DNA of 32,004 bases from a virus, in IMG/VR virus record IMGVR_UViG_3300036770_004584, positions 1-32,004 of that record; one strand, 5' to 3'. This document shows positions 5,012 to 24,016 of the stretch, piece by piece (position 1 is the stretch's first letter; every line of letters begins with the position of its first letter). The notes beneath the pieces were generated by a model. That model had not been told where the DNA came from. It made no database searches and saw nothing but the letters and a program-made list of their open reading frames with translations. The position numbers and the translations under genes were made by a program.

Positions 5012-5019
5012 GGTAAATA
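5012..5019 (+). promoter_or_regulatory. T4-like late promoter octamer GGTAAATA
   Basis: GGTAAATA lies just 5 bases before ATG 5025. The octamer matches the T4 gp55-type late promoter pattern; it is the only such site seen inside the early bank. Confidence 0.55.
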
Positions 5020-5024
5020 TCTTT

Positions 5025-5444
5025 ATGGGCACATTTGATATCATGATCACGGTCGCCGTGGCGTTTTGGGCGGGTTGGAAGATACGAGAAGCATGGATGA
5101 TGTTGACCATGCGCCAGATCCTCAAAGACCTCGGTATCACTGACGAACAGCTCAGAGACCTAGCTCGCCAGCAGAACATCGAGCTTCCGGGTATCGAATC
5201 GGAGGAGGACAGCGACACCCCCGTGGTAGATCTAAAGATCGAACAGCACGGTGATGCCCTGTATGCTTACCAAACCAAAGACGATCAGTTCATCGCACAG
5301 AGCAACAGCGCCGACGGTCTCCTGGAACGCATCATCGAGCGATTCCCCGCAGGAACCAGGGTCGTGTTCGATCGCTCTAACGGCGGGGATCTGATCAAGG
5401 CCGCCGCAGAACGCATGAAGGTACAGGCCAGCACTTCCGACTGA
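5025..5444 (+). CDS. 139-aa membrane-anchored protein, unknown
   Basis: An N-terminal membrane anchor (about residues 5-20, IMITVAVAFWAGW) is followed by a helical segment (MRQILKDLGITDEQLRDLAR), an acidic linker (ESEEDSDTP) and a C-terminal alpha/beta domain (VDLKIEQHGDALYAYQTKDD). The pattern resembles conserved unknown proteins of marine T4-like phages. Translation must start very close to the mRNA end if GGTAAATA is used; GGAAGG at 5008-5013 is otherwise a possible ribosome binding site for transcripts from upstream. Role unknown. Confidence 0.8.
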   Translation: MGTFDIMITVAVAFWAGWKIREAWMMLTMRQILKDLGITDEQLRDLARQQNIELPGIESEEDSDTPVVDLKIEQHGDALYAYQTKDDQFIAQSNSADGLLERIIERFPAGTRVVFDRSNGGDLIKAAAERMKVQASTSD

Positions 5445-5450
5445 TTTTGG

Positions 5451-5479
5451 TTGACAACTCCGCATTTTGGACCTATAAT
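5451..5479 (+). promoter_or_regulatory. sigma-70 early promoter with TTTGG spacer block
   Basis: TTGACA (5451-5456), 17-base spacer, consensus TATAAT (5474-5479); TTTGG at 5466-5470. Confidence 0.88.
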
Positions 5480-5513
5480 CGTATACATAGGTTAACAAAT
5501 AAGGAGCGAAGAA

Positions 5514-5789
5514 ATGTACTTGGTTTATTCCGTTATAGCAGAGCGTGATCACTACGAGGGCGATCGTGTATATCCTTTAGGCGTGTTCGCAGATCGTGCG
5601 GAGGCCATAGACTACGGTGTAGGTTATCTGTTCGATGACGATGGGGATGATCCTCGCGTAGGCGTTATGGATTCCGTGCGTGTGATAGAGTTCGACGGCG
5701 TGTTTCCTGATGTGGATCTGTATGCTTACCGCCATGGCTTGGTAGGGCGCGGTGCTGGTGAGTGCGTGTTAGCAGCCGCTGTGGCCTAA
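5514..5789 (+). CDS. 91-aa acidic early protein, unknown
   Basis: ATG 5514 follows AAGGAGCGAAGAA. The protein begins with a beta strand (MYLVYSVIAERDHYEGD), then a helix (FADRAEAIDYGVGYLF) and an acidic loop (DDDGDDP), then beta strands. A small alpha/beta protein with strongly negative charge; it may bind a host regulator. Its promoter is one of the strongest in the window. No family recognised. Confidence 0.8.
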   Translation: MYLVYSVIAERDHYEGDRVYPLGVFADRAEAIDYGVGYLFDDDGDDPRVGVMDSVRVIEFDGVFPDVDLYAYRHGLVGRGAGECVLAAAVA

Positions 5790-5794
5790 TTTGG

Positions 5795-5823
5795 TTGACA
5801 ACTAGGCACTTTGGCAGCATAAT
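5795..5823 (+). promoter_or_regulatory. sigma-70 early promoter with TTTGG spacer block
   Basis: TTGACA (5795-5800), 17-base spacer, CATAAT (5818-5823); TTTGG at 5810-5814. Confidence 0.85.
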
Positions 5824-5850
5824 AGAAACATAGCAAACAAGGAGCGTGAT

Positions 5851-6024
5851 ATGAAAGTTTATATGGTTGCACCCTGGGAACAGTACTACGGATACGATAT
5901 GGCTTGTGCTCGGTTTTTCTCCCGCAAAGAGGATGCTGAAGAGTACTGTGAACGGCGCCGGGAAAAGGACAACTCTTGGGAAGTAGAAGAGTACGACTTA
6001 GACTCGGAATTGGTTTCTAACTAA
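5851..6024 (+). CDS. 57-aa early protein, unknown
   Basis: ATG 5851 follows AAGGAGCGTGAT. The peptide MKVYMVAPWEQYYGYDMACA leads into a helix rich in charge (RKEDAEEYCERRREKDN) and an acidic tail. The beta-strand start, aromatic loop and charged helix echo the preceding 91-aa protein (strand, 'F..R.EA..Y' helix), so the two may be distant paralogues. The TAAGGAG at its stop provides the ribosome binding site for the next gene. Confidence 0.75.
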   Translation: MKVYMVAPWEQYYGYDMACARFFSRKEDAEEYCERRREKDNSWEVEEYDLDSELVSN

Positions 6025-6034
6025 GGAGCGAACG

Positions 6035-6286
6035 ATGACTGTAGAGACTTACAAGAACCTGGGCACCATCCGCAAGGCCACCAAACAGGAAACGGACGGT
6101 GAAGGCGGCTACTTCTATCAGCCCAAGGGCCAAACACGAGAGTTCCACGCCTTGACCGTCAAAGATGCCCGAGAGGGTCTGGTATGGGCTGAAGAAGATC
6201 AGCGCAAGATCCGTGATGCTGTGACGTTCCTGCAGAGCCACGGCTACAAGATCTACCAAGAGATCTCGTGGAAAACCTTCGCATAA
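6035..6286 (+). CDS. 83-aa early protein, unknown
   Basis: ATG 6035 follows CTAAGGAGCGAACG, only 10 bases after the previous stop, so it shares the promoter at 5795. The product is polar and basic (MTVETYKNLGTIRKATKQET, then RKIRDAVTFLQSHGYKIYQE), predicted soluble alpha/beta. No family recognised. Confidence 0.8.
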   Translation: MTVETYKNLGTIRKATKQETDGEGGYFYQPKGQTREFHALTVKDAREGLVWAEEDQRKIRDAVTFLQSHGYKIYQEISWKTFA

Positions 6287-6291
6287 ATTGG

Positions 6292-6320
6292 TTGACAAAT
6301 CCCCACTTTGGCAGCATAAT
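6292..6320 (+). promoter_or_regulatory. sigma-70 early promoter with TTTGG spacer block
   Basis: TTGACA (6292-6297), 17-base spacer, CATAAT (6315-6320); TTTGG at 6307-6311. Confidence 0.85.
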
Positions 6321-6347
6321 AGCACTATAGCAACTTAGGAGCGATAC

Positions 6348-6470
6348 ATGGAAATCTTAATCGGCATAGGGATTGGCATCCTAGCAGTGTTAGCCATACC
6401 CGCATTCTTCGTCATCAAGTGGTTCATCAGCGATCTGATCGGCGCCAAATCAGGCAGGGGATTCCACTGA
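6348..6470 (+). CDS. 40-aa single-span membrane peptide
   Basis: ATG 6348 follows TTAGGAGCGATAC. It encodes MEILIGIGIGILAVLAIPAF then FVIKWFISDLIGAKSGRGFH: one strongly hydrophobic N-terminal helix and a short basic tail. Its TGA overlaps the ATG of the next membrane protein (TGATG at 6468-6472), so the two are coupled and may act together. Confidence 0.7.
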   Translation: MEILIGIGIGILAVLAIPAFFVIKWFISDLIGAKSGRGFH

Positions 6471-6691
6471 TGACTCTGGCAGTGTTGAAATGGCTGGGCA
6501 CGGGCTTCACCGTCTTAGGTGCTCTGCTCACGAGCCTGACTGGATTCGATCCATGGAATGTCTATGCGTTCAACCTGGGCGCGATATTTTGGCTTTGGGC
6601 ATCAATCCGTATGCAGGACGCGGCGCTTATGGCAGTGAACGCTAGCCTGTTGACAATATATGTGATTGGCACTATAATTAGATTACAGTAA
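6470..6691 (+). CDS. 73-aa three-helix membrane protein (DUF6552-like)
   Basis: The start overlaps the previous stop (TGATG). Three hydrophobic segments are visible: residues 8-23 (WLGTGFTVLGALLTSL), 31-45 (YAFNLGAIFWLWASI) and 51-70 (ALMAVNASLLTIYVIGTIIR). The layout with an early TSL, a central FNLGA..W and a final small helix resembles DUF6552-type and semiSWEET/PnuC-like small transporters of phages; this assignment is from memory and tentative. A second promoter lies inside its last codons (6650-6678). Confidence 0.72.
   Translation: MTLAVLKWLGTGFTVLGALLTSLTGFDPWNVYAFNLGAIFWLWASIRMQDAALMAVNASLLTIYVIGTIIRLQ
6650..6678 (+). promoter_or_regulatory. sigma-70 promoter inside a coding region
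   Basis: TTGACA (6650-6655), 17-base spacer, TATAAT (6673-6678): a perfect-consensus promoter wholly inside the 3' end of the preceding gene. It serves the membrane protein at 6710 and probably the three genes after it. Confidence 0.85.
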
Positions 6692-6709
6692 ACAACTAAG
6701 GAGCACATG

Positions 6710-6901
6710 ATGGCAAATCTCGCAGCGGTATTTCTGTTCGGTGGATTCCTGTTGACGTTTGGTGCAGTGGGCGGCATGGAAGCCGTGCCCCTGTGGGATC
6801 CAAACCCTTACTTCTATCATCAGCTGGCGGCCGCGGCCGCAGGACTGTTCTTCATGATGATCGGTGTAGTGATCCTTCCCCAGGAAGACCACTATGAGTG
6901 A
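6710..6901 (+). CDS. 63-aa two-helix membrane protein
   Basis: ATG 6710 has AAGGAG (6698-6703) at the usual 6-base gap; ATG 6707 directly upstream is an alternative. Two membrane helices are clear: MANLAAVFLFGGFLLTFGAV with GG after it, and LAAAAAGLFFMMIGVVILP, joined by an aromatic loop (PLWDPNPYFYHQ). The pattern resembles small conserved membrane proteins of marine T4-like phages. The run of GC-rich Ala codons at 6827-6841 is unusual locally but encodes the second helix. Confidence 0.75.
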   Translation: MANLAAVFLFGGFLLTFGAVGGMEAVPLWDPNPYFYHQLAAAAAGLFFMMIGVVILPQEDHYE

Positions 6902-7115
6902 CATCGAGATCCGGGGCTTCACTGACCTGCAGAAGGACCTAGCTGATCGCATATGGGCTATGGACACCGTGGAAGAGATCAACCATTTCGTCAACCAGCT
7001 GCCCCGGAGCCTGAAGCGAGAAGCCTGGGTAGTGATGCAGATGATCATCATGGTTGAACTGGATCAAGTAGAGGAGGTCACAGAAGATGTCCAACGGTAT
7101 CTTAGCAGCCTTTAG
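6894..7115 (+). CDS. 73-aa helical protein, unknown
   Basis: ATG 6894 overlaps the previous gene by 8 bases and is preceded by AGGAAG. The product is all helical and acidic (MSDIEIRGFTDLQKDLADRI, then MDTVEEINHFVNQLP, MQMIIMVELDQVEEVTEDVQ). It resembles conserved short marine T4-like phage proteins with an 'IWAMDT.EE...F...LP' pattern. Its own 3' end contains GAGGAGG, the ribosome binding site for the next gene. Confidence 0.75.
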   Translation: MSDIEIRGFTDLQKDLADRIWAMDTVEEINHFVNQLPRSLKREAWVVMQMIIMVELDQVEEVTEDVQRYLSSL

Positions 7116-7449
7116 CTGCCTGCTCACAGCAGTGGCGATGAACACCTTGGTCGCCACCCAGGCCCGTGCCTCAGACCTAGGGCAGGCGATATTAGCGGGC
7201 GTGGTCACACACGCCATAGTGGGCGCCATACAGCGCAATAACCAACCTAGCCCTGTGTACATACCGCCCGTGGTCACCCACACAGGAGCTTACCATCCCA
7301 TCATCCTAGCTCCTAATCACGATCCCCGTGTGTATCGTCCGCAGCAGGTCATGCCCACTGTGAGCAGAGATGCCTGTGCCTACAACGGACAGACCGTCTA
7401 TGTCTACGATCACACGGGCAGGGTCGTAGGCTATCAGATCTGCCCGTGA
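7087..7449 (+). CDS. 120-aa exported protein with signal peptide
   Basis: ATG 7087 follows GAGGAGG (7071-7077) and overlaps the previous gene. The N-terminus MSNGILAAFSCLLTAVAMNT followed by LVATQARA-SD is a good Sec signal peptide with a cleavage site after ARA (about residue 28). The mature part begins with a hydrophobic helix (LGQAILAGVVTHAIVGAI) and continues Pro/Tyr-rich (PSPVYIPPVV, PRVYRPQQV), ending with a beta hairpin (YNGQTVYVYDHTGRVVGYQI) and two Cys. It should act in the periplasm or envelope. The stop overlaps the start of a lipoprotein gene. No family recognised. Confidence 0.78.
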   Translation: MSNGILAAFSCLLTAVAMNTLVATQARASDLGQAILAGVVTHAIVGAIQRNNQPSPVYIPPVVTHTGAYHPIILAPNHDPRVYRPQQVMPTVSRDACAYNGQTVYVYDHTGRVVGYQICP

Positions 7450-7682
7450 ACCGCGCTGCCCTAATCGCAGCAGTGATCCTGCTCGCAGGCTGCGATCAAG
7501 TCGCCTACAGGACAGTGGGCCTAGTGCCCGAGCCCGCAGAGCGCAGCCCCGCGATTGAGATCTCCGCAGTGGCGACGGTGACCTTGGCGGGTCCCAGAGA
7601 TAGAGTAGAGAGGATCCTCCATCTCATAGTGGAGAGAGACGCTGAGGTGATGACCTTGGTCGAGATCAAGACTGATCGGTGA
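7446..7682 (+). CDS. 78-aa lipoprotein
   Basis: The start is GTG 7446, overlapping the previous TGA. MNRAALIAAVILLAGCDQ is a typical lipoprotein signal with lipobox LLAGC (Cys16). The mature domain contains a beta strand (PAIEISAVATVTLAG), a charged helix (PRDRVERILHLIVERDA) and a final strand. The overlap of an exported protein and a lipoprotein invites comparison with Rz/Rz1 spanins, but the partner has no Rz-type coiled coil and the lipoprotein is not Pro-rich. An envelope role such as superinfection exclusion is an alternative. Confidence 0.75.
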   Translation: MNRAALIAAVILLAGCDQVAYRTVGLVPEPAERSPAIEISAVATVTLAGPRDRVERILHLIVERDAEVMTLVEIKTDR

Positions 7683-7711
7683 TGGTGGGGTTGGCCGGTT
7701 ATACAGTGTGC

Positions 7712-7729
7712 TAAGTTAGTGCTTACTTA
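7712..7729. repeat. 18-base near-palindrome, copy 2
   Basis: TAAGTTAGTGCTTACTTA; its reverse complement differs from the sequence at 2923-2940 by a single base. It lies just after the last gene of the early bank. Confidence 0.6.
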
Positions 7730-7788
7730 CTAGCCTTAATGGTCAAAAATCACCACCCAGAAAAGAAAAGTACTCCACCTAAATTTTT

Positions 7789-7813
7789 TGCAGGGCAATT
7801 TTTTTACCCTGCA
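7789..7813. terminator. hairpin at the early/late junction
   Basis: TGCAGGG (7789-7795) pairs with CCCTGCA (7807-7813); the loop contains a T-run (ATTTTTTTA). The T-run is inside the loop rather than after the stem, so this is a weak terminator candidate; it may also be a control element before the late genes. Confidence 0.4.
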
Positions 7814-7824
7814 GGTGCCTTTTG

Positions 7825-7832
7825 GGTAAATA
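7825..7832 (+). promoter_or_regulatory. T4-like late promoter octamer GGTAAATA
   Basis: GGTAAATA ends 4 bases before ATG 7837. It opens the block of plus-strand late-type genes. Confidence 0.6.
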
Positions 7833-7836
7833 CCTG

Positions 7837-8430
7837 ATGATAGACAACGATCCCGAACTCACAGCGTTCTATGCGCCAAAATGGACAGACCCCGAATACA
7901 TACAGGGCAAGCGAGAAACTTTTGAACTAGTTGATCAGTATCTCACAGAGCCACCTCAGCGTATCCTAGACATTGGCTGCGGCTACGCACATGTCAGTGG
8001 ATTTTTCCAGAAAAAGTATGGCACTGAGCTGTGGCTGTTAGACGGTGATCGCAGCCTAAACACTGATCAGCACACACGCAAAGCCAAGTACGGTCCCGTA
8101 GACGATTTCCAGTTTTACGCACCTGTCCAGCAGCTACGGGAGCACTGGGATTCACAGCAGATGCAGTACACATTCGTAGATGCCAGTGCGCCACAGATCG
8201 ATCCTCTAGTAAAGTTTGATCTAATCTACAGTTGGATCAGCTGTGGCTTCCATTATCCAGTCACTGTATATCGGGATCTAATCGTCAGACACAGCGATGA
8301 ACGCACAGTGGTAATCATGGACTTCCGTAGGAAAACGCTCAGCGAACAACAGCAGCATTTCACTGTCTTAGACACACTGAGAGGCTCATTAGACAGCAAA
8401 AAGATCACTCTGCACATCCGGTTTAACTAG
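7837..8430 (+). CDS. class I SAM-dependent methyltransferase
   Basis: Motif I is clear: RILDIGCGYAHVSGFFQ near residue 40, followed by the acidic end of strand 2 (LWLLDGDRS). DLIYSWISCGFHYPV occupies the motif IV/post-motif IV position. The length, 197 aa, suits a compact methyltransferase; the substrate is not visible from sequence. I chose ATG 7837 over the in-frame TTG 7822, because the latter would begin upstream of GGTAAATA. There is no ribosome binding site, consistent with a leaderless start. Its stop abuts the stop of the convergent gene at 8431. Confidence 0.8.
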   Translation: MIDNDPELTAFYAPKWTDPEYIQGKRETFELVDQYLTEPPQRILDIGCGYAHVSGFFQKKYGTELWLLDGDRSLNTDQHTRKAKYGPVDDFQFYAPVQQLREHWDSQQMQYTFVDASAPQIDPLVKFDLIYSWISCGFHYPVTVYRDLIVRHSDERTVVIMDFRRKTLSEQQQHFTVLDTLRGSLDSKKITLHIRFN

Positions 8431-8661
8431 TTAATCTTCTACGATCTGCCAACGGACCTGCGGTAATATCCAGCTCAGCGCGAAGTGTGTATATGCACGA
8501 TCGTCAGTGAATGTCACTGTGAGTTTATAGTAAGTGACTTCTGTGGTGTAGTCAAACCCATAAAGGTCTTGCCATCGCTGTAGCTCACGATTTAACACAG
8601 AGCAAGAGTACAGTGCTGCCTGTCCTCCTGCGCCACTGGGCAGTTTGAACTCAACATGCAT
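8431..8661 (-). CDS. 76-aa conserved phage protein, unknown
   Basis: A minus-strand gene among plus-strand ones. The product starts MHVEFKLPSGAGGQAALYSC and has a helix (VLNRELQRWQDLYGFDY), then beta strands (YYKLTVTFTDDRAYTHFALSW). The 'helix then YTHFALSW' pattern resembles a conserved unknown of marine T4-like phages. The start lies 6 bases after a CGTAAATA octamer on the same strand. It converges exactly end to end with the methyltransferase gene. Confidence 0.75.
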   Translation of the reverse strand: MHVEFKLPSGAGGQAALYSCSVLNRELQRWQDLYGFDYTTEVTYYKLTVTFTDDRAYTHFALSWILPQVRWQIVED

Positions 8662-8667
8662 ACACAG

Positions 8668-8675
8668 TATTTACG
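8668..8675 (-). promoter_or_regulatory. T4-like late promoter octamer CGTAAATA (minus)
   Basis: CGTAAATA on the minus strand ends 6 bases before ATG 8661. Confidence 0.55.
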
Positions 8676-8804
8676 CCTCTGCCGGAGATCCTGCACCGGG
8701 TCATAGACTTCGGGGCCACGAGAAAAAACCGCTGTGCCCCTTTTGCTAGCGCTGTCGCTGCGCTCTAAAAAAATTTTGCGCTTCGCGAAAAAAATTTGCG
8801 CTCC
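8676..8804. other. intergenic region with short GCG-rich repeats
   Basis: I find no gene here. It holds three related short segments, CTGTCGCTGCGCTCTAAAA, TTTTGCGCTTCGCGAAAA and ATTTGCGCTCCGCTAAA, each a GC-rich core between A/T runs. GCGCTTCGC can form a tight hairpin. It may serve as a bidirectional terminator or spacer between divergent late promoters at 8668 (minus) and 8805 (plus). Confidence 0.45.
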
Positions 8805-8812
8805 GCTAAATA
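8805..8812 (+). promoter_or_regulatory. T4-like late promoter octamer GCTAAATA
   Basis: GCTAAATA ends 8 bases before ATG 8821. Confidence 0.55.
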
Positions 8813-8820
8813 CCTAGGCA

Positions 8821-9453
8821 ATGCCCCGATTAGATCCCACAGATCCCGGTCCACCAACACCAAAATCCCAGACACTGCTGTCGCTGGCCACATACATGCG
8901 CTGCTCTCAGTCTGTGGTCATGGATCCGTTCACGTTCATGCCTTACTCACAGGCACGATGGGGTTGGGATACCAGAGGCAGCGGCCTGTTCTATCGTAGC
9001 TGCGGTGACTGGGATCGAGGTCTCAGCCGTGTGCCCGTCACAGCATGGAATGAGATCTGCTACTGCGACTATAAGATCTACAGGGAGACCTTGGAGATCC
9101 CCCAGCAGCGGCAGTGCCTAGATCGCTGGCTCTGCGTAGACACCGGGTTAAAATGGCTGCACATCAGCATAGACGATCTCGCAGTGGATCCAATGCAGGC
9201 CGTGGAGTCTCTACAGCAGTTGCCCGGCCGGTCAGCGCTGATCATAGAAGTGTTCAATCGCAGTCACAGAGATTTCCGCGAGGAGGAACTAGACAGACTG
9301 CGCAGCTGCCTGATCACGGATCGTGTATGGGCCTTGGACTGCCATAGAAGCCCTTTGGTCAGCACCGGCGACGATCAGGCCTGGCTACAGGATCTCCGAA
9401 GTCCCACTGCGCCTCGGGTCTGGTACACTAGATACACACGAAGGCTTAAATAG
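8821..9453 (+). CDS. 210-aa protein, unknown
   Basis: The frame starts at the ATG after GCTAAATA and ends at the TAG inside the next promoter (CTTAAATAG). The product is rich in Arg, Trp, Cys and Asp, with a Pro-rich N-terminus (DPTDPGPPTPKS). LKWLHISIDDLAVDP and SALIIEVFNRSHRDF look like strands and helices of an alpha/beta domain. No catalytic signature is recognised. It is densely packed with GATC and CTAG like its neighbours. It is probably late-expressed because of its promoter. Confidence 0.72.
   Translation: MPRLDPTDPGPPTPKSQTLLSLATYMRCSQSVVMDPFTFMPYSQARWGWDTRGSGLFYRSCGDWDRGLSRVPVTAWNEICYCDYKIYRETLEIPQQRQCLDRWLCVDTGLKWLHISIDDLAVDPMQAVESLQQLPGRSALIIEVFNRSHRDFREEELDRLRSCLITDRVWALDCHRSPLVSTGDDQAWLQDLRSPTAPRVWYTRYTRRLK
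9445..9452 (+). promoter_or_regulatory. T4-like late promoter octamer CTTAAATA
   Basis: CTTAAATA overlaps the preceding stop codon and ends 5 bases before ATG 9458. Confidence 0.5.
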
Positions 9454-9457
9454 CAGT

Positions 9458-9646
9458 ATGAAAACAATCCCTGTCAGTGTCACAGTCTATGCAGATCCGG
9501 AATGCCGTAACTGGCTCGCTGTGAGAGGCTGCAGGATCTCGCCAACCAAGCTGGGTGAACTAGAGATCGAGTTCACCTCCGTGACAGCGATCACTGAATT
9601 CCTGCTGAAATTTCCGCAGCACGTATGCACACAGTCTACTACCTAG
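9458..9646 (+). CDS. 62-aa protein, unknown
   Basis: ATG 9458 follows CTTAAATA by 5 bases; the frame is open upstream but overlaps the previous gene. The product is a small beta-rich protein (MKTIPVSVTVYADPECRNWL, GELEIEFTSVTAITEFLLKF) with a conserved-looking beta-alpha layout. It overlaps the next gene by 22 bases. No family recognised. Confidence 0.65.
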   Translation: MKTIPVSVTVYADPECRNWLAVRGCRISPTKLGELEIEFTSVTAITEFLLKFPQHVCTQSTT

Positions 9647-9885: not shown

Positions 9886-9995
9886 TATATACTATTATCG
9901 CAGCCAGTTGTAGCCATCGCTAGCAAATGTCATTCCAGTGCAGCGGCACTACATAACAAAGAGAACGATCGGATCCTGGCTGCGATCCTATCTCG

Positions 9996-10583
9996 ATGAC
10001 AGTTCCTGCGTACATAATCTGCGATACCCACACAGCCCAGGGCCTAGAAACCCTGAGAGAAACGGAATCACTGCTGGCTCAATTCAACTACAGCTATCAG
10101 CGTTGGCCGCAGACCCAGGGCAGATCTGTCACGGCAGAAACATGGCAGAGCCTAGGCATACGGCGCTTGGATCAGGGCAAATGGGTCAACAGGCCCGGAG
10201 CCTGGGGCTGCTTTATCAGCCATTATCGCCTTTGGCAGCTCAGCCGTGACAGCGGAAAGCCGATGTTGATATTGGAACATGATGCTCTGGCACAGGCGCC
10301 GTGGCCTGAAGATCTAGATCTAGATCAGTGTGTATGGAAACTGTGGCGGCCCGTGCCCGTGAAATTCAAACCCACGGTGGGCTATTGGAACAGAGGAGCC
10401 TGGGCCTACACGCTGACCGCCAAGCAGGCAGACAGCCTCATACGGTTCACGGAGCAGCAGGGCGCCCTAGCTCTGGACAAGCAGATCGGCTCTCACGATG
10501 TGCATTGGCAGCACTACGATCGAGATCTGTTCTTGCATAATCCAAAGAAACGTCAGAGTACGACCAGCGGCAGATCTCGATAA
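9996..10583 (+). CDS. GT25-family glycosyltransferase
   Basis: The core motifs of glycosyltransferase family 25 (LPS/collagen-type galactosyltransferases) are present: RPGAWGCFISHYRLWQLS, then GKPMLILEHDA (the usual LEDDA acidic cluster, here LEHDA), then the YTLTAKQADSLI segment, and DKQIGSHDV. Length 195 aa is short but normal for phage GT25 proteins. It would transfer a hexose to a lipooligosaccharide, glycoprotein or other acceptor. The family is found in marine T4-like phages. The first D of the usual E-D-D-A is His, so metal binding may differ. Another long frame on the same strand (9938-10249) is a shadow. Confidence 0.82.
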   Translation: MTVPAYIICDTHTAQGLETLRETESLLAQFNYSYQRWPQTQGRSVTAETWQSLGIRRLDQGKWVNRPGAWGCFISHYRLWQLSRDSGKPMLILEHDALAQAPWPEDLDLDQCVWKLWRPVPVKFKPTVGYWNRGAWAYTLTAKQADSLIRFTEQQGALALDKQIGSHDVHWQHYDRDLFLHNPKKRQSTTSGRSR

Positions 10584-10586
10584 ATA
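10579..10586 (+). promoter_or_regulatory. T4-like late promoter octamer GATAAATA
   Basis: GATAAATA overlaps the previous stop and ends 5 bases before ATG 10592. Confidence 0.6.
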
Positions 10587-10591
10587 TTTTT

Positions 10592-11020
10592 ATGACAGTT
10601 CAACTTCAGTTCTTTGATCACCTGAGCGAACACAGTCAGCGCACAGGCTTTTCTCCGCCCGGTCTATTACTGATCTACCTCTCTGAACTATTGGCAGAGC
10701 GCCTAGAACGGGTAGACATCATACCAGAGCCCAGTTTCGCAGAACGTTATCTGCAACTGTACTCCTGCCACAGATTACAAGATTTCAAGGACTACGCAGA
10801 CAGCACACTGTTTTTCGTCAGCCTCTTGCCTGAATACGGTCGTCGCAAGGGTCTGGACATGGATTACTACGCCACACTGGGCATATCAGTCTATTACACC
10901 TTGGCTGACCTCAGCCACGATTCTCGTTATACGCAGCTGGGCAATTGGTTTTATCATCTGCAGAAATTCCTTAATTCTGCGCTGCATCCAAGGCGAGATC
11001 TAAACCTCTTAGATTTCTAA
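10592..11020 (+). CDS. 142-aa helical protein of a proteobacterial/phage unknown family
   Basis: The product is all helical: LLLIYLSELLAERLERVD, then AERYLQLYSCHRLQDFKDYA, DSTLFFVSLLPEYGRRKG, and DYYATLGISVYYTLADLS. The order 'ERYL.LY ... DFADSTLFF..LLPE ... YY..LG...Y..LA' recalls a family of uncharacterised proteins found in proteobacteria and in phages; I know no function for it. Its ATG follows GATAAATA by 5 bases, giving a near-leaderless message. Confidence 0.72.
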   Translation: MTVQLQFFDHLSEHSQRTGFSPPGLLLIYLSELLAERLERVDIIPEPSFAERYLQLYSCHRLQDFKDYADSTLFFVSLLPEYGRRKGLDMDYYATLGISVYYTLADLSHDSRYTQLGNWFYHLQKFLNSALHPRRDLNLLDF

Positions 11021-11064
11021 GCCAGATCTACACTACCTGCGATCAGTATCTACTAACTAGCTGT

Positions 11065-11415
11065 ATGACCTTTGAACAAATCTTATGGGCCACCGCAGCC
11101 TGGGCGATTTTTACTGCTGTGGTCTATCAACACAGCGGTTGGCGTGCCATACGAGACTGCTACAGCATGTGGTTCCGCAGAGATTACTGGACCAATTACA
11201 ATATCGTAGAAGCAGCTTCTTGGATAGCCAAAGCAGTGATCATCGTGCCCGGATTGATATTCGGCGTCCAAATATGGTGGCTGTATATCATAGCTCTAAT
11301 GACCAGCATGACCCTGATCTGGGCATCGAACCGCAAGCTCTTGCCCACATTGGTTGGCTTTAACACTCTTTGGATTTGGTTGGCCTGTATGGTGTTAGCA
11401 CAGCATTTTGTATAA
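11065..11415 (+). CDS. 116-aa four-helix membrane protein
   Basis: Four hydrophobic segments are visible: about residues 6-21 (ILWATAAWAIFTAVVY), 49-69 (ASWIAKAVIIVPGLIFGVQI), 70-84 (WWLYIIALMTSMTLI) and 92-113 (LVGFNTLWIWLACMVLAQ). It is rich in Trp. There is no signal peptide and no recognised family. It sits in the inner membrane by prediction, directly upstream of a TATAAATA-driven gene and one gene before another membrane protein (Bax inhibitor-1 type). Confidence 0.72.
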   Translation: MTFEQILWATAAWAIFTAVVYQHSGWRAIRDCYSMWFRRDYWTNYNIVEAASWIAKAVIIVPGLIFGVQIWWLYIIALMTSMTLIWASNRKLLPTLVGFNTLWIWLACMVLAQHFV

Positions 11416-11418
11416 ATA
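11411..11418 (+). promoter_or_regulatory. T4-like late promoter octamer TATAAATA
   Basis: An exact T4 late-promoter consensus TATAAATA, overlapping the preceding stop, ends 5 bases before ATG 11424. Confidence 0.72.
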
Positions 11419-11423: not shown

Positions 11424-11633
11424 ATGACACAGCAATATCTACTACCGATGGCGAGGAATCTCAAAACCGGTCAGACCGTTAAGACACAGGATCTAACTGG
11501 TTCTAGATTGACCCTTCAGCAGCGCACGATAGCAGAAGCGCTGAGCAATCAATTAGCTGACAAAATGTCAGCGAGAACTGGTGATCCCTGGGTTGGGTTC
11601 ACACAGCAGTATACACCAACTACAAGACGCTAG
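11424..11633 (+). CDS. 69-aa basic protein, unknown
   Basis: ATG 11424 follows TATAAATA by 5 bases. The product is basic and polar: MTQQYLLPMARNLKTGQTVK, LQQRTIAEALSNQLADKMSA, and an Arg-rich end (TPTTRR). The small basic character and late promoter suggest a virion or assembly-related protein, but no family is recognised. Confidence 0.68.
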   Translation: MTQQYLLPMARNLKTGQTVKTQDLTGSRLTLQQRTIAEALSNQLADKMSARTGDPWVGFTQQYTPTTRR

Positions 11634-11746: not shown

Positions 11747-11754
11747 GCTAAATA
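11747..11754 (+). promoter_or_regulatory. T4-like late promoter octamer GCTAAATA
   Basis: GCTAAATA lies 6 bases after the TATAAT of the sigma-70 promoter; unlike most others here it is followed by a true leader with AGGAGG. Confidence 0.5.
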
Positions 11755-11773: not shown

Positions 11774-12451
11774 ATGGAATATACACAGACTTGGAGATCT
11801 GCCGCTGAAATCAATCAGGCGATGAGCAGGGTCTATGGTCACATGAGTTTAGCCGTGCTGACCAGCATGGTTGTCAGTTTTTTAATCAGCAGCTCGCCTG
11901 ATTTAATGCAGTTCTTTTTTACCGGAGCGATGAAATGGCTAGTGATGTTCGCACCATTAATCGGGATAATCGCGCTGAGTTTTGGACTAGATAAATTGAC
12001 CTACGGTCAAGCACAGATCGCCCTGCATGGGTTTGCCGCTTTGATGGGACTGAGTTTTGCCACTATCTTCGTGGTGTTTACTCTAGGCAGTATTGTATCG
12101 GCATTCATGAGCGCCGCAGTGTTGTTCGGCACGATGACGTTCTATGGCTATTTCACAAAACGTAGCCTAGAAAGCGTTGGACAGTTTATGTTTATTGGAC
12201 TAATCGCTATAGTTATCGCATCGATCATCAACATCTTTGTTGGCAGCACAGTGGCACAAATGGTGATCAGCGCCTTGGCTATCGTTATATTTCTTGGGTT
12301 GACTGCTTGGGATACTCAGAGAATTAGAGAAATGGTATCAATGGACAGCGTTGACGGACGTATGGAAGTCGCGGGTGCGTTGAGCCTTTATCTAAACTTT
12401 ATTAATATTTTCTTGAATCTATTGCAGTTATTTGGTAATCGTTCTGAATAA
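11774..12451 (+). CDS. Bax inhibitor-1/YccA (TMBIM) family membrane protein
   Basis: ATG 11774 follows AGGAGG. The product is 225 aa with about seven membrane helices and the family hallmarks: an early TM pair, the GTMTFYGYFTKRSLESVG loop, TAWDTQRI in helix six (Asp180) and GALSLYLNFINIFLNLLQLFG at the end (given here as one family motif of about 20 residues). In the YetJ-type calcium-leak channels two Asp in helices six and seven form a pH-sensing pair; here the second position appears to be Asn (N208), which would alter gating. Bacterial YccA also modulates the FtsH protease. In a phage it may change host membrane permeability or protect membrane proteins from FtsH. Driven by an early and a late promoter. 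Confidence 0.93.
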   Translation: MEYTQTWRSAAEINQAMSRVYGHMSLAVLTSMVVSFLISSSPDLMQFFFTGAMKWLVMFAPLIGIIALSFGLDKLTYGQAQIALHGFAALMGLSFATIFVVFTLGSIVSAFMSAAVLFGTMTFYGYFTKRSLESVGQFMFIGLIAIVIASIINIFVGSTVAQMVISALAIVIFLGLTAWDTQRIREMVSMDSVDGRMEVAGALSLYLNFINIFLNLLQLFGNRSE

Positions 12452-12796
12452 CTAGACGCCAAAACGATTGCGTTTTGGTTTAGCCACGGGGCTGACAGTG
12501 TAGGTGCTGCTGGGCTCGTGGCTTCTCTTATCTGTTAACGGAATACCTTTGTGTCCTGTCTGCGCTTCTCCGCCTTTGATAATTTCTTCTTCTTCTGGGG
12601 TGTAGGCCACGATCACTGCGTGTTGCTGGGCAGGTCCTTCTGGATAATTAATTTCATGGTTAGCCATCGCCATCCCGAATCTGTAGGCCTGATATGGGTC
12701 TGAGCTAGGCATCGTAGGAAAATGTTTAGAAAAAGGCATAACAGCTCTTTTCCTAGTCGGCATTAATCTTTCTGTTATGAATTCACGTGCTCGCAT
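12452..12796 (-). CDS. 114-aa protein with capsid-targeting-like N-terminus
   Basis: The N-terminus MRAREFITERLMPTRKRAV resembles the capsid-targeting sequence of T4 internal head proteins (amphipathic start, EFI.E), and I-T-E at residues 7-9 fits the I/L-x-E cleavage rule of the T4 gp21 prohead protease. The remainder is polar, Pro-rich and probably extended (YTPEEEEIIKGGEAQTGHKG, SHEPSSTYTVSPVAKPKRNR). MRAREFI-type starts recur in marine T4-like phages. I infer an internal, possibly injected, head protein. A GGTAAATA octamer ends 4 bases before its ATG. Confidence 0.75.
   Translation of the reverse strand: MRAREFITERLMPTRKRAVMPFSKHFPTMPSSDPYQAYRFGMAMANHEINYPEGPAQQHAVIVAYTPEEEEIIKGGEAQTGHKGIPLTDKRSHEPSSTYTVSPVAKPKRNRFGV
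12459..12481 (+). terminator. hairpin terminator between convergent genes
   Basis: CCAAAACG (12459-12466) pairs perfectly with CGTTTTGG (12471-12478) around a 4-base loop and is followed by TTT. It lies 8 bases after the BI-1 stop, within the 3' end of the convergent gene. The T-run is short. Confidence 0.5.
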
Positions 12797-12799: not shown

Positions 12800-13051
12800 T
12801 TATTTACCAAATTTTAAGGCGAACTCTGTGCGTAATTCGGGTCGATAAAATTCTGCATACAGTTTCTGCATACCTGCGTTAATGCCTGTTTCTTTTTCTA
12901 ATATTAGTTGTACTTCTGTGTGCGGACGTCGATTGAGCCAACGTATTGTTTCGTTACCGGCTAGATCATGCACTAAAGGCCAAGGTATATCATTATAACT
13001 GTCGGTGTAATCACCTAGCCATTCGGCTAGCATAACTTTTTCATTCTTCAT
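12800..13051 (-). CDS. 83-aa protein downstream of the helicase, unknown
   Basis: The gene overlaps the helicase stop by 11 bases; a second ATG seven codons in (MLAEWLGDY) is an alternative start. The protein is acidic/aromatic at the N-terminus (EWLGDYTDSYNDIPWPLV) with a helical middle (GNETIRWLNRRPHTEVQLIL) and end (MQKLYAEFYRPELRTEFAL). No family recognised. Coupling to gp41 suggests a replication-linked role, inferred from position only. Confidence 0.72.
   Translation of the reverse strand: MKNEKVMLAEWLGDYTDSYNDIPWPLVHDLAGNETIRWLNRRPHTEVQLILEKETGINAGMQKLYAEFYRPELRTEFALKFGK
12801..12808 (-). promoter_or_regulatory. T4-like late promoter octamer GGTAAATA (minus)
   Basis: GGTAAATA on the minus strand overlaps the end of the preceding gene and ends 4 bases (AAGG) before ATG 12796. 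Confidence 0.5.
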
Positions 13052-17203: not shown

Positions 17204-17232
17204 AGTATATTATCTGTAGAGAATTTTGTCAA
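17204..17232 (-). promoter_or_regulatory. sigma-70 promoter before primase (minus)
   Basis: TTGACA (17232-17227), 17-base spacer, TATACT (17209-17204); 6 bases (CTTACT) to ATG 17197. The -35 box lies in the 3' end of the preceding gene. Confidence 0.75.
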
Positions 17233-18277
17233 ATGTTCCAGTATTTGCTTCAGAAGTTCCGCCGCGTATAAAAGATTGGACTCCGTTATATGATAACCCG
17301 GACCAAGTTATTCCGGTTATCTCTCCATTGTCGCCGACAGCGGTTATAGTGACCGTTAAGTCGTTAGTTGGAGTTTCGCCCCCCAAGGTTCTTCCTTTAA
17401 TTAATAGTTGTGTGCCAACTTGATAACCTCTTCCTGGGTTATTAATTGAAACATTGTAATATCCAAAAATTGTCTGATTGACTTCGAAAGCACCTAACAG
17501 ATCATTTTGGTCTGGTATGTGTTTAATTCTAAAAAAGTTATACTTGCCAACAATATTCACATATTCTCTATCTGCTTCTACATAATCAATGGTCCTTACA
17601 TCAACCCAAGTTTGCGGGTTTCCGCCTTGGTCAATACTACCTTGTACAATTACTCTGCCGCTGTAGTTACTCATATATAAATCAAAAGTGTGTAGAGACT
17701 GGGGAGTTACAAGTTGAGAGTTAGTATAAATTATTCCGCTCAAATAAAAATCATCTTGAGGATCTAACAAAGCATAATATTTGAATTCCGAAACTTCAAA
17801 ACTAGCCCGAGGCTCTCCCGTAAGACTTTGGATTATTTCTAATCGTCCTATGCTTCCATATTGACTATCCACATAAGCAGGGTATCTACTTACAACATCG
17901 TGAGTAGTAGAATCGATATTTGTTCTAGTTTCATAAACTAAATTAAAAGAATATAAGCCTGGTTCAATATTTAAGATTTCATTTTCAGAAATTATTACAT
18001 AAATTTTACCGGTTTCGCTATCCTGTGTCACACAATCTTTTTGAAGTATTAATTCTTGAGTTTCTGTTCCAACTATTGAAAATACAAATACTGCGTCACC
18101 GATATTTTTAAATTTTTGATCAGAACTTTTAACACGAAATTCTATTTTATTACTAGAACCTCGATATAGTTTTAGATTGCGTTGATACACTTGTCTATAC
18201 CTCTCTTGTTCCCAATCCTGGATATTTGTGTAAGCATCCAATCGATTTGGATATAAATAAACTGAATCCAATTGCAT
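17210..18277 (-). CDS. probable virion structural protein, 355 aa
   Basis: The protein is almost entirely beta-structured. The last 90 residues contain a repeat unit typical of marine phage fibre or baseplate proteins (NNPGRGYQVGTQLLIKGRTL, GGETPTNDLTVTITAVGDNG, EITGITWSGLSY). The middle has YYALLDPQDDFYLSG, IYTNSQLVTP and FRIKHIPDQNDLLGAFEV. This fits a tail-fibre or baseplate-associated virion protein; which one is not clear. A GATAAATA late promoter and an AAAGG ribosome binding site 9 bases before the ATG support late expression. It is isolated among replication genes. Confidence 0.78.
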   Translation of the reverse strand: MQLDSVYLYPNRLDAYTNIQDWEQERYRQVYQRNLKLYRGSSNKIEFRVKSSDQKFKNIGDAVFVFSIVGTETQELILQKDCVTQDSETGKIYVIISENEILNIEPGLYSFNLVYETRTNIDSTTHDVVSRYPAYVDSQYGSIGRLEIIQSLTGEPRASFEVSEFKYYALLDPQDDFYLSGIIYTNSQLVTPQSLHTFDLYMSNYSGRVIVQGSIDQGGNPQTWVDVRTIDYVEADREYVNIVGKYNFFRIKHIPDQNDLLGAFEVNQTIFGYYNVSINNPGRGYQVGTQLLIKGRTLGGETPTNDLTVTITAVGDNGEITGITWSGLSYNGVQSFIRGGTSEANTGTFDKILYR

Positions 18278-18295
18278 ATTAAAGGACCTTTACTA

Positions 18296-18303
18296 TATTT
18301 ATC
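18296..18303 (-). promoter_or_regulatory. T4-like late promoter octamer GATAAATA (minus)
   Basis: GATAAATA on the minus strand, followed by AAAGG and ATG 18277; this one has a normal leader of about 18 bases. Confidence 0.65.
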
Positions 18304-18304
18304 T

Positions 18305-20805: not shown

Positions 20806-21058
20806 CGTCTTTGCTCAAGTGATAAATCAGTATAGCACGATCTAGAGCATCTCGCAAGAGCGGATTTGATTTTGCTTTTCGTCTAATTTCACCCCAGAGT
20901 TTATCTTCTTTAATCTCTTCTATTTTACACTTAGCTTTGGTACTTTGGCCTATCATCCACTTGTCAGTTTCTCCTGCGTACCTCGCATATACTGTATCAC
21001 CCCCGTCTGGGCTTTCGTAGATAATTTTAGCTCCTGGTTTGAGTGATCCCATGATCAT
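20798..21058 (-). CDS. 86-aa conserved phage protein, unknown
   Basis: The protein opens with a beta unit (SLKPGAKIIYESPDGGDTVY) and closes with a helical LWGEIRRKAKSNPLLRDALD and RAILIYHLSKDDG. The 'IYE..DG...YAR ... LWGEIR..AK.NP.L..AL.R.I..Y.LSK' pattern resembles a conserved unknown of marine T4-like phages. ATG 21058 overlaps the methyltransferase stop (ATGA) and is preceded by AAAGGA; ATG 21052 is an alternative. Confidence 0.78.
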   Translation of the reverse strand: MIMGSLKPGAKIIYESPDGGDTVYARYAGETDKWMIGQSTKAKCKIEEIKEDKLWGEIRRKAKSNPLLRDALDRAILIYHLSKDDG

Positions 21059-21606
21059 ATCCTTTCGGCCATGATAAAAAAGTTTTTTACAGGAATTTCT
21101 TTCCTTAGTTGCTTTGAATATTTTGAAAATTCTTTGTAGTCTTCTTTTATAACACGAACTCCTGCCTGTGTAAACTTATTTCTCCACCATTCTGGAGTTT
21201 CTTGTATTAGGTGTGCATTTCTTCCATCTGGTAATATAAGCTTGGCAGGGGCACAACTTATTAGATGATATTGCAAAGGCGATTTTATACATAAAGTTTC
21301 TAAAACTGTTTTGATGTGCTCAGGTTCTACATGCTCAAGGACATCTGTGGATATAATCATATCTACATCTGGTAATGGAATATCATACTCTGGATTAGCT
21401 GGATCATACCCTATAATCTTTTTATTAGGGTACAATTCATTTAAAACTTTAACAAGATTTCCTTTTCCGCATCCAAAGTCTAAAACAGAGTTAGGCTGTT
21501 TTATTTTAATAAATTCGTCTAGATAAGGGGGAACTTTTGCTCGTTTTCCGAATGGCGTGTTTTTGTGAATATCTCTGTAAATATTTTTAAGAGAGTTAGA
21601 GATCAT
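21055..21606 (-). CDS. class I SAM-dependent methyltransferase
   Basis: Motif I SVLDFGCGKGNLVKVLNEL (about residues 40-58), an acidic end of strand 2 (IIGYDPANPEY), motif IV VDMIISTDVLEHVEPEHI (about 80-97) and a Methyltransf_11/23-type layout. 183 aa. The acceptor is not visible; with cupin, glycosyltransferase-like and FkbM genes just upstream, a sugar or surface-polymer O-methyltransferase is the natural guess. It begins in an ATGA overlap with the cupin gene. Confidence 0.85.
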   Translation of the reverse strand: MISNSLKNIYRDIHKNTPFGKRAKVPPYLDEFIKIKQPNSVLDFGCGKGNLVKVLNELYPNKKIIGYDPANPEYDIPLPDVDMIISTDVLEHVEPEHIKTVLETLCIKSPLQYHLISCAPAKLILPDGRNAHLIQETPEWWRNKFTQAGVRVIKEDYKEFSKYSKQLRKEIPVKNFFIMAERI

Positions 21607-21947
21607 TTACTAAAACCAACAGTTTCTCTTTCAATGTCGTCGTGATCAAATTCAGCCCAATACAATTCAAACGCTATGCAATCTTCTACTGCTTCAAATT
21701 GATGGTATTCTCCCGGAGCAACTTTCGTATATTGCCCAGCTTCTAAAATTGTTTCGTCGACAAGATCGTAATTATTTTTCCATACACGAATAATCATTTT
21801 TCCGCTCTCGACAAAAAAACCATTCCATTTATATTTGTGTTTGTGTTTAGAACACACTCCTCCTGCTTTGGCTTCAATTCTATGAAATTCTAGAACGCCG
21901 TTGGCTTCTAATAATTCAGTCTGACCCCACACTTTTCCTGCTTTCAT
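21603..21947 (-). CDS. cupin-domain protein, 114 aa
   Basis: A single cupin fold: the motif-1 region CSKHKHKYKWNGFFVESGKM (two His, then a Gly turn) and the motif-2 region VAPGEYHQFEAVEDCIAFEL (P-G-x-x-H). I chose ATG 21947 because GGAG lies about 8 bases upstream; an ATG 18 bases earlier lacks one. Single-domain cupins of this size include sugar isomerases and epimerases as well as non-catalytic binders; given the sugar genes nearby, a role in nucleotide-sugar metabolism is plausible but not shown. It overlaps the end of the gene above by about 32 bases. Confidence 0.82.
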   Translation of the reverse strand: MKAGKVWGQTELLEANGVLEFHRIEAKAGGVCSKHKHKYKWNGFFVESGKMIIRVWKNNYDLVDETILEAGQYTKVAPGEYHQFEAVEDCIAFELYWAEFDHDDIERETVGFSK

Positions 21948-22572
21948 TATTTTTCTCCGTTTCAATAATTGTAAATTTATGGTTAGCTTTATATTGTTGA
22001 CTGTAATGAGAACCTGTCATGTTATATAACTTATACTTTCTCAGTTCAACTTTTAATTGTTTATATTCGATAATATTATCATCTCCTGGATAATTCATAT
22101 TGTAATAAATCTGAGCCCATGCTTCGGAATCTCCCTGCCATCTTGATCTGTCATTCGGAAATAGATCTATAGCTTCTTGAAATATTGGATAAGCAGTCTT
22201 TTTGGCTAATCTCCATGCTGGTGATATCCTATTTTCTCTCACAGTGAATGCAGCATCACCAATTAAATCTGGAATCAAGTTGGTGAGCCTAGCATCTGGT
22301 TCTGTAAACCAATAAGTTTGATTATCTTCAGCGACGGTCTTTAGAAATTCAGTAAAAAAAACTTCACGATTAAAGTTTACCCAATCCGGGTTTCCTTCAA
22401 AATAAATGTTTTCGTCTCCTAGTCCTTGATGTCCTTCTAATGTTATATGTATTAATGGTATATTGTGCTTTTTTAAATTATTTCGTAAACCTAACATTAA
22501 TTCTTCATATAACCCTTTAGGAAATTTATCTGAGATTCTAGGACAATTAGCATAGTACACTACTGCTTTCAT
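21916..22572 (-). CDS. glycosyltransferase-like protein, 218 aa
   Basis: The protein begins with a Rossmann-like strand (MKAVVYYANCPRISDKFPKG), then KHNIPLIHITLEGHQGLGDE, NREVFFTEFLKTVAEDNQTY and a W-F-T-E-P-D-A segment with an acidic pair like a nucleotide-sugar metal site. Later WQGDSEAWAQIYY fits the acceptor side. The layout resembles small GT-A-type glycosyltransferases of phages, but no family signature is firm. It lies two bases after the FkbM gene and overlaps the cupin gene. Confidence 0.6.
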   Translation of the reverse strand: MKAVVYYANCPRISDKFPKGLYEELMLGLRNNLKKHNIPLIHITLEGHQGLGDENIYFEGNPDWVNFNREVFFTEFLKTVAEDNQTYWFTEPDARLTNLIPDLIGDAAFTVRENRISPAWRLAKKTAYPIFQEAIDLFPNDRSRWQGDSEAWAQIYYNMNYPGDDNIIEYKQLKVELRKYKLYNMTGSHYSQQYKANHKFTIIETEKNNESRKSVGSD

Positions 22573-22574
22573 TT

Positions 22575-23177
22575 TTAGTCTTTAATTAAAATGTGATCAT
22601 ATCCTCTTGGATCTACTGCGGCTATTTTATAGCCTAATTCTTTTTGAATCCATTCTAAGGTATCTCTTTCGAAATAAACTTCTAAATTAATTACTGGCCA
22701 ATAAGTCGTTATAGTTTCTAATGCACCATTTAAGACTGCCATTTCATAGCCGTCTGTATCGATTTTAATGTAATCAACATCTGTAAAATTAAAGTCATCT
22801 AATCTACAAAAGTTTTCGTTACCAATCGGGTCATTTCCTTTACGCTCACTGATTGGTTTATCGCCCAATGGTACTCCAAAATGCGTAACACGACTTACGT
22901 CTACATTATGCGGGAAAAACTTTCTTGTTCTTGGGTCGAACGCAAAAATATCTTTAAAATCTCTTATCAAATATCTTGTGTATTCGCCGTCTCTGCATCC
23001 AATATCTATAGCAGTTCTAAATTTTTTAACAAAAGGCTTACTAAGTTCATAAGCGAGTTTGCAATGATGATTAGGATATTCTGCTGCTCCTACTTTACAG
23101 TAAAAGAAATCTCTTTCAACAAATGATTCTTCGTAGTATCCGGGAGCAAACAGAGTGGGTTCAACTGGATAAGTCAT
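22575..23177 (-). CDS. FkbM-family methyltransferase 1
   Basis: SAM-binding motif AIDIGCRDGEYTRYLIRDF (about residues 55-73), acidic motif IFAFDPRTRKF, and the FkbM signature DYIKIDTDGYEMAVLNGALE (about 135-154) followed by WPVINLEVYFE. 200 aa. The family O-methylates sugars and polyketides. It is the first gene of its minus-strand unit, behind a perfect TATAAATA late promoter and an AAGGAAA ribosome binding site. Confidence 0.88.
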   Translation of the reverse strand: MTYPVEPTLFAPGYYEESFVERDFFYCKVGAAEYPNHHCKLAYELSKPFVKKFRTAIDIGCRDGEYTRYLIRDFKDIFAFDPRTRKFFPHNVDVSRVTHFGVPLGDKPISERKGNDPIGNENFCRLDDFNFTDVDYIKIDTDGYEMAVLNGALETITTYWPVINLEVYFERDTLEWIQKELGYKIAAVDPRGYDHILIKD

Positions 23178-23195
23178 AATTTTTTTCCTTTCTGC

Positions 23196-23203
23196 TATTT
23201 ATA
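23196..23203 (-). promoter_or_regulatory. T4-like late promoter TATAAATA (minus)
   Basis: A consensus TATAAATA on the minus strand with a normal leader (18 bases, AAGGAAA) before ATG 23177. It is two bases from a plus-strand octamer, forming a divergent pair. Confidence 0.75.
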
Positions 23204-23205
23204 AC

Positions 23206-23213
23206 GTTAAATA
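23206..23213 (+). promoter_or_regulatory. T4-like late promoter octamer GTTAAATA (plus)
   Basis: GTTAAATA ends 5 bases before ATG 23219. Confidence 0.55.
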
Positions 23214-23218
23214 GTTTG

Positions 23219-24016
23219 ATGATAAAATATGCCTATTGTCCAGAAATAATAGAAAATAAAAGTTCTAATTGGATTTTGCAGCCTTGGATAAAGTCTGGAG
23301 CAAAACTTTTTAATACAGTCAAAGAAGTTCCTGAAGATTACGTTTTGATTTCTGTACATTATCCACCTTGGCGGTCTCCTTACAAAGAATGGATTTCTTT
23401 AGGAAGAAAACACATAGAAGTAGACTACGGGTATTGGGGAATTAATAATCCTAGAAGAAATACACGCAGAGTCACATATGGCGGCGGCCATAATCTTAAC
23501 ATGAGATCCACTCCATTCAGCAGGACACACACTTTGCATCCTAAAATTGAAAATTGGAGAGATTCGCTAGGCGAATATCTTTTGTTAATCGAACCACAAC
23601 AAGAAATAGTTAAGGAAAGATTAGGAATAGATTTAGGTACATGGAAAAATAATTTATTAGAAACATTATCGCGTCATTGGGATGGTCCAATTAAATGGAG
23701 GCGCAAGGCAGGAGGTAAAAATCCTGGCCGGTGGCCTAGTTTTTTAGAAGACCTAAAAGGATGTCATGCAGTTGTAGGTGAACGAACAATGGCCTGCGTC
23801 GAAGCCGTTATGTTAGGAAATCTTGCCTACACTACAGATTATTCAACTGTAAGTTTGCTAATGGGAACTGATTTATCTAAATTAAAAAAACCAGAGTATC
23901 CAGATCGTACGAAATGGCTTAATCACGTTGCTTGGAGCCAATTTTTACCTGAAGAATTTGGTAATAATACTTCTGTAGCAGACATGGTCTATCAGTATCA
24001 AATGGAGAATATTTAA
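23219..24016 (+). CDS. glycosyltransferase-like protein, 265 aa
   Basis: Start at ATG 23219, 5 bases after GTTAAATA; TTG 23216 is also in frame. The protein begins MIKYAYCPEIIENKSSNWIL, has VEVDYGYWGINNPRRNTRR-like basic-aromatic segments and a C-terminal nucleotide-binding-type region (GCHAVVGERTMACVEAVMLG) that matches the 'S..g.EAl..G.P' logic of capsule-type and GT-B glycosyltransferases. The protein at the right edge of the window has a comparable segment. It stands with an FkbM gene on the plus strand amid minus-strand genes. Confidence 0.62.
   Translation: MIKYAYCPEIIENKSSNWILQPWIKSGAKLFNTVKEVPEDYVLISVHYPPWRSPYKEWISLGRKHIEVDYGYWGINNPRRNTRRVTYGGGHNLNMRSTPFSRTHTLHPKIENWRDSLGEYLLLIEPQQEIVKERLGIDLGTWKNNLLETLSRHWDGPIKWRRKAGGKNPGRWPSFLEDLKGCHAVVGERTMACVEAVMLGNLAYTTDYSTVSLLMGTDLSKLKKPEYPDRTKWLNHVAWSQFLPEEFGNNTSVADMVYQYQMENI

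Follow-up and report, generated by a model that had tools for sequence, protein, structure and literature searches.

Introduction

Late expression in T4-like phages is a textbook case of sigma-factor switching, and is usually drawn with mRNAs that carry Shine–Dalgarno (SD) leaders. Here we analyse the hexamer TAAATA, a candidate late-promoter element, and its distance from start codons in a 32-kb viral fragment (IMG/VR record IMGVR_UViG_3300036770_004584, positions 1–32,004; 'the window' means this whole stretch) and in related phages. In T4, the late promoters that depend on gp55, gp33 and gp45 have a TATAAATA-type box as their sole recognised element. This late TATA box has a T at −13 (PMC2988020).

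Leaderless late mRNAs are known from the Thermus phage phiYS40, where most of the middle and late transcripts lack a leader and are translated by host ribosomes, and where a rise in IF2 and a fall in IF3 have been reported (PMC3594737). PhiYS40 resembles the phages described here in its leaderless late mRNAs, which in our case are predicted, but it belongs to another phage family and uses another type of promoter. For AR9, leaders of 26–491 nt are reported. A search of the literature on leaderless mRNAs in cyanophages, pelagiphages, jumbo phages and T4, mostly at the level of titles and abstracts, found no account of the trait for T4-like phages. Leaderless late mRNAs in phiYS40 and late promoters in T4 are thus both known; at the level of those titles and abstracts, their combination, with spacing alone deciding how the mRNA is translated, was not found described.

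The window encodes a T4-like replicative helicase and primase and one further phage DNA helicase. A near-identity search of a phage collection gave nothing matching it. Among annotated phages, the jumbo phages PA5oct, Atu_ph07 and Phosso come closest to it by protein (∼50% identity). Closer relatives are numerous in IMG/VR, with helicase identities of up to 89%.

Results

Distance between TAAATA and start codons

A reading made from the letters of the window alone (the sequence-only reading) had listed eight TAAATA/ATG pairs with nearly no space for a leader, and two sites with normal leaders. Defining d as the number of nucleotides between TAAATA and the start codon, a scan of every TAAATA in the window reproduced all eight pairs: d was 5 for the ATGs at 5025, 9458, 10592, 11424 and 23219, 4 for those at 7837 and 12796 (minus strand), and 6 for that at 8661 (minus strand). 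Both sites with normal leaders, at 18296 and 23196 (minus strand), were also found, each with a spacing of 18. A close site at 8807 (spacing 8) and a leadered site at 11749 (spacing 19, with AGGAGG) had been overlooked. The elements had all been called octamers. The hexamer is present at every one, but the full TATAAATA sequence occurs among the close sites only at 11411–11418.

The window has 27 occurrences of TAAATA against 37 expected, and so no excess. All nine occurrences in the first 13 kb stand 4–19 nt before the start of an open reading frame (ORF). Seven ORFs of at least 60 amino acids have TAAATA at d = 4–5, where dinucleotide-shuffled upstream regions gave ∼0.3; the maximum in 40 shuffles was two ORFs.

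The comparison was extended to 88 sequences, the window included, totalling 2.7 Mb, with the requirement that the ATG open at least 60 codons. The TAAATA-to-ATG distances were bimodal, with a peak at 4–5, a trough at 9–15 and a second hump at 18–25, so that the close sites form a real second class, as had been proposed. At d = 4, 5, 6, 7 and 8 there were 88, 162, 21, 27 and 9 cases, with 2–7 per position at 9–15 and 24–51 at 18–23. Because the related contigs share common ancestry, these raw counts overstate independence. Safer figures come from allowing every protein family a single count at a given distance: 35, 44, 15, 17 and 6 families at d = 4–8, 2–6 at 9–15 and 12–18 at 18–23, which keeps the bimodal shape.

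The peak is a property of this particular hexamer. In ten large relatives, 129 cases of TAAATA were found at d = 4–5, compared with 4–54 for 14 other hexamers of identical composition. TAAATA is also the rarest of these hexamers in the ten relatives (1024 occurrences versus at least 1573), as if it were avoided away from starts. An excess at d = 4–5, of 13–20 seen versus ∼1.5–2.5 expected, was present in each of four relatives and in the cultured phage HTVC008M. The full TATAAATA octamer was rejected as the signal because it occurs too seldom, with a single close site in the window and 124 in the loci.

Sequences around the element and the start codon

With the T of the T4 box at −13, TAAATA would occupy −11 to −6, and a spacing of 5 would put the A of the ATG at +1. 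The base that would then be at −1 is T in 81% and C in 16% of the d = 5 class (97% pyrimidine). A pyrimidine is the usual base preceding a transcription start. In leadered promoters these positions are not dictated by an ATG; among 185 of them, A occupies the sixth position after TAAATA in 62% and T the fifth in 49%. This T-A initiator at the same offset agrees with a box ending at −6 and a predicted +1 at the sixth base. In a virion-protein family (L141:3758–5164 and homologues), TAAATA stands at 7–8 and an invariant ACT directly precedes the ATG, which suggests a fixed 3-nt leader. Of the two bases before TAAATA, A at −12 is found in 45–65% but T at −13 in only ∼5–19%; what these promoters share is an (A)TAAATA core and not the T4 octamer in its strict form.

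An SD core between −18 and −4 was found in none of 38 sequences at d = 4, in 19 of 98 at d = 5 and in 84 of 156 leadered sequences (d = 16–28), against baselines of 50% for long ORFs and 10% for random ATGs. The SD sequences inspected in the d = 5 class begin 5′ of TAAATA (e.g. AAAGGAATAAATA), and would therefore lie outside the proposed transcript. With only 4–8 nt between TAAATA and ATG, no SD lies between the predicted +1 and the start codon. Start codons at d = 4–5 were ATG in 144 cases, GTG in 3 and TTG in 5, which is a weak test as ATG is dominant everywhere; since ATG predominates in both classes, AUG-only starts were rejected as a discriminator. Nor do the classes differ in RNA folding over the first 40 nt, which is weak in both (−2.90 kcal/mol for leaderless versus −2.75 kcal/mol for leadered).

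The start calls themselves appear sound: annotated starts fall at the homologous residue in the HTVC008M terminase and in the PA5oct virion proteins gp282 and gp320. Orthologues can change class. Those of the window ORF at 11424 share the same ..YLLPMARN..TGQTVK start and have TAAATA either at 5 without an SD or at 16–23 with one. Similarly, the terminase is predicted to be leaderless in nine of ten relatives, and the tenth has no TAAATA but AAGGA instead.

Genes with and without predicted leaders

Besides the terminase, the predicted leaderless genes encode the neck protein (10 of 10 relatives), a member of the tail-tube family and several virion proteins. They also include genes whose products begin with MKTFKEYLAES or MRAKEFITE, N-termini like the capsid-targeting sequence that internal head proteins carry in T4. 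The N-termini MRAREFITE (window, 12452–12796, minus strand) and MRSFKDYLTES (L187:5351–5950; MKTFKEYLAES in relatives) resemble that sequence as well. The SD-led genes are those for the major capsid protein (AAGGAG in 10 of 10), the tail tube (10 of 10), the portal (in most) and the sheath (SD in 10 of 10, with TAAATA at 31–34 in 8 of 10). The proposal that late genes are leaderless is thus supported for many close-spaced, SD-free genes but not for the major capsid, sheath and tail tube genes. By analogy with T4, abundant virion parts would keep their SD sequences and those of modest copy number would not.

Several starts are divergent. In ten relatives, 33–44 bp separate the neck gene from the gp320-like gene, and TAAATA stands at 4–5 on one side and 7–8 on the other. 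HTVC008M has a divergent gp2/gp4 pair (DNA end protector and head closure) with 26 bp between the genes and TAAATA at 5 on both strands. Gaps of 26–44 bp leave no room for leaders.

At d = 5, 67 of 162 starts either diverge from the upstream gene or lie more than 100 nt away from it. Other sites abut a preceding gene, and in the window the hexamer overlaps the end of the previous ORF at 9447, 10581, 11413 and 12801 (minus strand). In relatives, the gene before the MRAKEFITE and MRLREL ORFs ends in ..WAK*, and its closing codons, GCT AAA TAA, supply the TAAATA for the promoter that follows.

Cultured phages

The trait is shared by HTVC008M and Mosig (Pelagibacter) and is slight in Melnitz (Methylophilales); all three are T4-like Kyanoviridae isolates distant from the lineage of the window. 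HTVC008M has 12 cases at d = 5, and 12 of its 14 TAAATAnnnnnATG sites are annotated gene starts, as are six of ten in the stretch of Mosig that was read and three of five in Melnitz, where the excess is small (5 matches versus 3 in the control). Genes with an annotated start exactly 5 nt after TAAATA include the DNA end protector (HTVC008M and Mosig), head closure and baseplate genes. In HTVC008M and Melnitz, an adenylate cyclase gene beside curli-type genes also starts 5 nt after TAAATA.

PA5oct (Arenbergviridae) shares gp55 and the order of the gp41 and gp61 genes with the relatives analysed here, and many of its structural genes have homologues in them, but it lacks the distance peak and has isolated cases only, such as the gene at 144985. 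Among the further candidate carriers searched (PA5oct, Atu_ph07, S-PM2, T4, P-SSM2, RaK2, XaC1 and Phosso), the d = 5 excess was nil or slight against a reversed-pattern control or shuffles. A phage-encoded bS21 was rejected as a correlate: it is present in HTVC008M (91237–91392), PA5oct (170985–171143) and Atu_ph07 (489120–489257), that is, in isolates with and without the peak, and was not found in the environmental relatives searched.

TAAATA sites in the window

The first 7 kb of the window has sigma-70-like promoters and AAGGAGCG leaders, as for early genes, and the TAAATA genes begin at 5 kb. Between 420 and 6700 there are about eight cassettes, each with a TTGACA/ATAAT promoter, a GGAG (mostly AAGGAGCG) 45–52 nt later and then a small ORF. 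Three more cassettes, whose CTTGCA..TATAATG spacers are near-identical, are at 3255, 3554 and 3978.

On the plus strand, the first close element (5014–5019) precedes a putative leaderless ORF of 139 amino acids (5025–5444) without a family match, whose ORF family has eight cases at d = 5. The element at 7827–7832, 154 nt from the upstream gene, precedes a putative leaderless ORF with a weak methyltransferase match (7837–8430). A divergent arrangement follows: the minus-strand element at 8668–8673 serves a putative leaderless ORF of 76 amino acids (8431–8661), which belongs to a family found at d = 5–7 in relatives, and the plus-strand element at 8807–8812 a putative near-leaderless ORF of 210 amino acids (8821–9453). 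Within the end of the latter lies the element at 9447–9452, before a putative leaderless ORF of 62 amino acids (9458–9646). The ATAAATA whose hexamer is at 10581–10586 overlaps the previous stop codon and precedes a putative leaderless ORF of 142 amino acids (10592–11020), with nine orthologues at d = 4–8 and three leadered. The full octamer at 11411–11418 precedes the putative leaderless ORF of 69 amino acids (11424–11633) whose orthologues change class.

The leadered element at 11749–11754 precedes a Bax1-I/YccA-type membrane protein (11774–12451; E 5e-49). In PA5oct, an FtsH-interacting membrane protein adjoins FtsH. On the minus strand, the element at 12801–12806 lies inside the last codons of the ORF at 12800–13051, and the putative leaderless MRAREFITE ORF that follows it belongs to a family found at d = 4–5 in 24 cases. 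Between 12000 and 14000, G+C falls from ∼0.50 to ∼0.36 at a change of the main coding strand. The two remaining leadered sites, both on the minus strand, are an ATAAATA at 18296–18301, with AAAGG, before a virion-structural-like ORF (17210–18277; phrog_14467), and a TATAAATA at 23196–23201, with AAAGGA, before an FkbM methyltransferase ORF (22575–23177). The start of the latter is 41 bp from that of a putative leaderless plus-strand ORF of 265 amino acids (23219–24016), whose element is at 23208–23213.

Discussion

The best reading of these data, and a highly probable one, is that gp55-type late promoters make leaderless mRNAs. TAAATA would be the −10 element, or TATA box, of late promoters that host RNA polymerase recognises through a late sigma factor of the T4 gp55 type. 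In about half of the promoters, +1 would coincide with the A of the ATG at spacing 5 or, over spacings 4–8, lie within ∼0–3 nt of it, giving a leaderless or near-leaderless mRNA whose 5′-terminal AUG the ribosome would bind directly, without SD pairing. The other half would produce leaders of ∼12–20 nt with an SD. That the mRNA starts at or near the ATG, as the sequence-only reading had proposed, is supported by the initiator sequence, the lack of SDs, the divergent pairs and the toggling of orthologues; a +1 exactly at the AUG and ribosome entry there are what we infer from these features. Use of the TAAATA sites by gp55 is suggested by their position and by homology, as homologues of PA5oct gp55 are encoded in five relatives, the four largest among them (E 8e-74 or better). 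The likeness to T4 extends to use on both strands and at structural genes and to the encoded gp55 homologue. T4 differs in having no spacing-5 peak (three cases, at chance level), whereas the phages described here have an (A)TAAATA core and many genes predicted to lack a leader.

Some observations weigh against this interpretation. There is no distance peak in T4, S-PM2, PA5oct or Atu_ph07, and the full T4 octamer is uncommon in the phages that show one. The search for a gp45 clamp was uninformative: PF02916 matched T4 only, missing even the annotated HTVC008M clamp, and the HTVC008M clamp protein as query gave no match in the relatives. Finally, 56 of 88 cases at d = 4 have a same-strand upstream stop within 30 nt.

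This last figure, together with 57 of 162 at d = 5, bears on termination–reinitiation, in which ribosomes on a polycistronic mRNA could dispense with an SD and TAAATA would owe part of its pattern to TAA stop codons close to the following ATG. The hexamer's place in the conserved last codons of the upstream gene in the MRAKEFITE and MRLREL families fits this mechanism, yet TAAATA is kept in these families despite different upstream codons (L046, L055, L048 and L050). With 67 of 162 d = 5 cases divergent or distant from the upstream gene, re-initiation is not the general answer. Divergent pairs have the element on both strands, and a stop-codon effect explains neither the hump at 18–25 nor the pyrimidine at −1. 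As a full explanation re-initiation is therefore improbable, though it, or coupling, may operate at many d = 4 junctions.

Leaderless transcription from gp55-type promoters also has to be set against the idea that TAAATA is an AU-rich translation enhancer within a longer leader. SD-free, AU-rich initiation does exist, and the first codons of the close-spaced genes are A-rich and weakly folded. However, other AT hexamers lack the peak, the same hexamer heads SD leaders at 18–25 in the same start register, and the 26–44 bp between divergent starts are too short for upstream promoters plus leaders, which makes an enhancer very improbable. In AT-rich phage DNA, where TAAATA is frequent, the hexamer might be expected to fall near ATG by chance, and this would suffice for PA5oct, T4 and S-PM2, whose counts are at chance level. 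As an explanation, chance is refuted by the comparative counts, both in the window (seven versus ∼0.3) and in each of the four relatives and HTVC008M, and by the retention of the element gene by gene across relatives, leaving it a negligible probability.

If gp55-type promoters do make leaderless mRNAs, leaderless starts may be used for late proteins needed in modest amounts, with capsid, sheath and tube genes keeping strong SDs. More tentatively, since we consider it possible but somewhat less than an even prospect, several T4-like lineages might run a two-tier late programme in which the box-to-AUG distance sets the translation mode. SD leaders would serve the bulk virion proteins and leaderless starts the low-copy ones (terminase, neck and internal head proteins), early genes would use sigma-70 promoters and strong SDs, and the phage might alter host initiation late in infection in favour of leaderless mRNAs.

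The comparative support for leaderless late mRNAs is strong, though short of proof, and the arrangement appears sufficiently conserved to count as a genuine second mode of starting late proteins in some T4-like phages. Depending only on its position, a single promoter box appears to specify either of two translation modes, both in uncultured phages that are abundant and in cultured Pelagibacter phages. TAAATA followed by 5 nt would mark the start codon, allowing more reliable start calls. The orthologues with and without leaders form a natural series, with which the efficiency of leaderless translation in Gram-negative hosts would be testable on phage genes.

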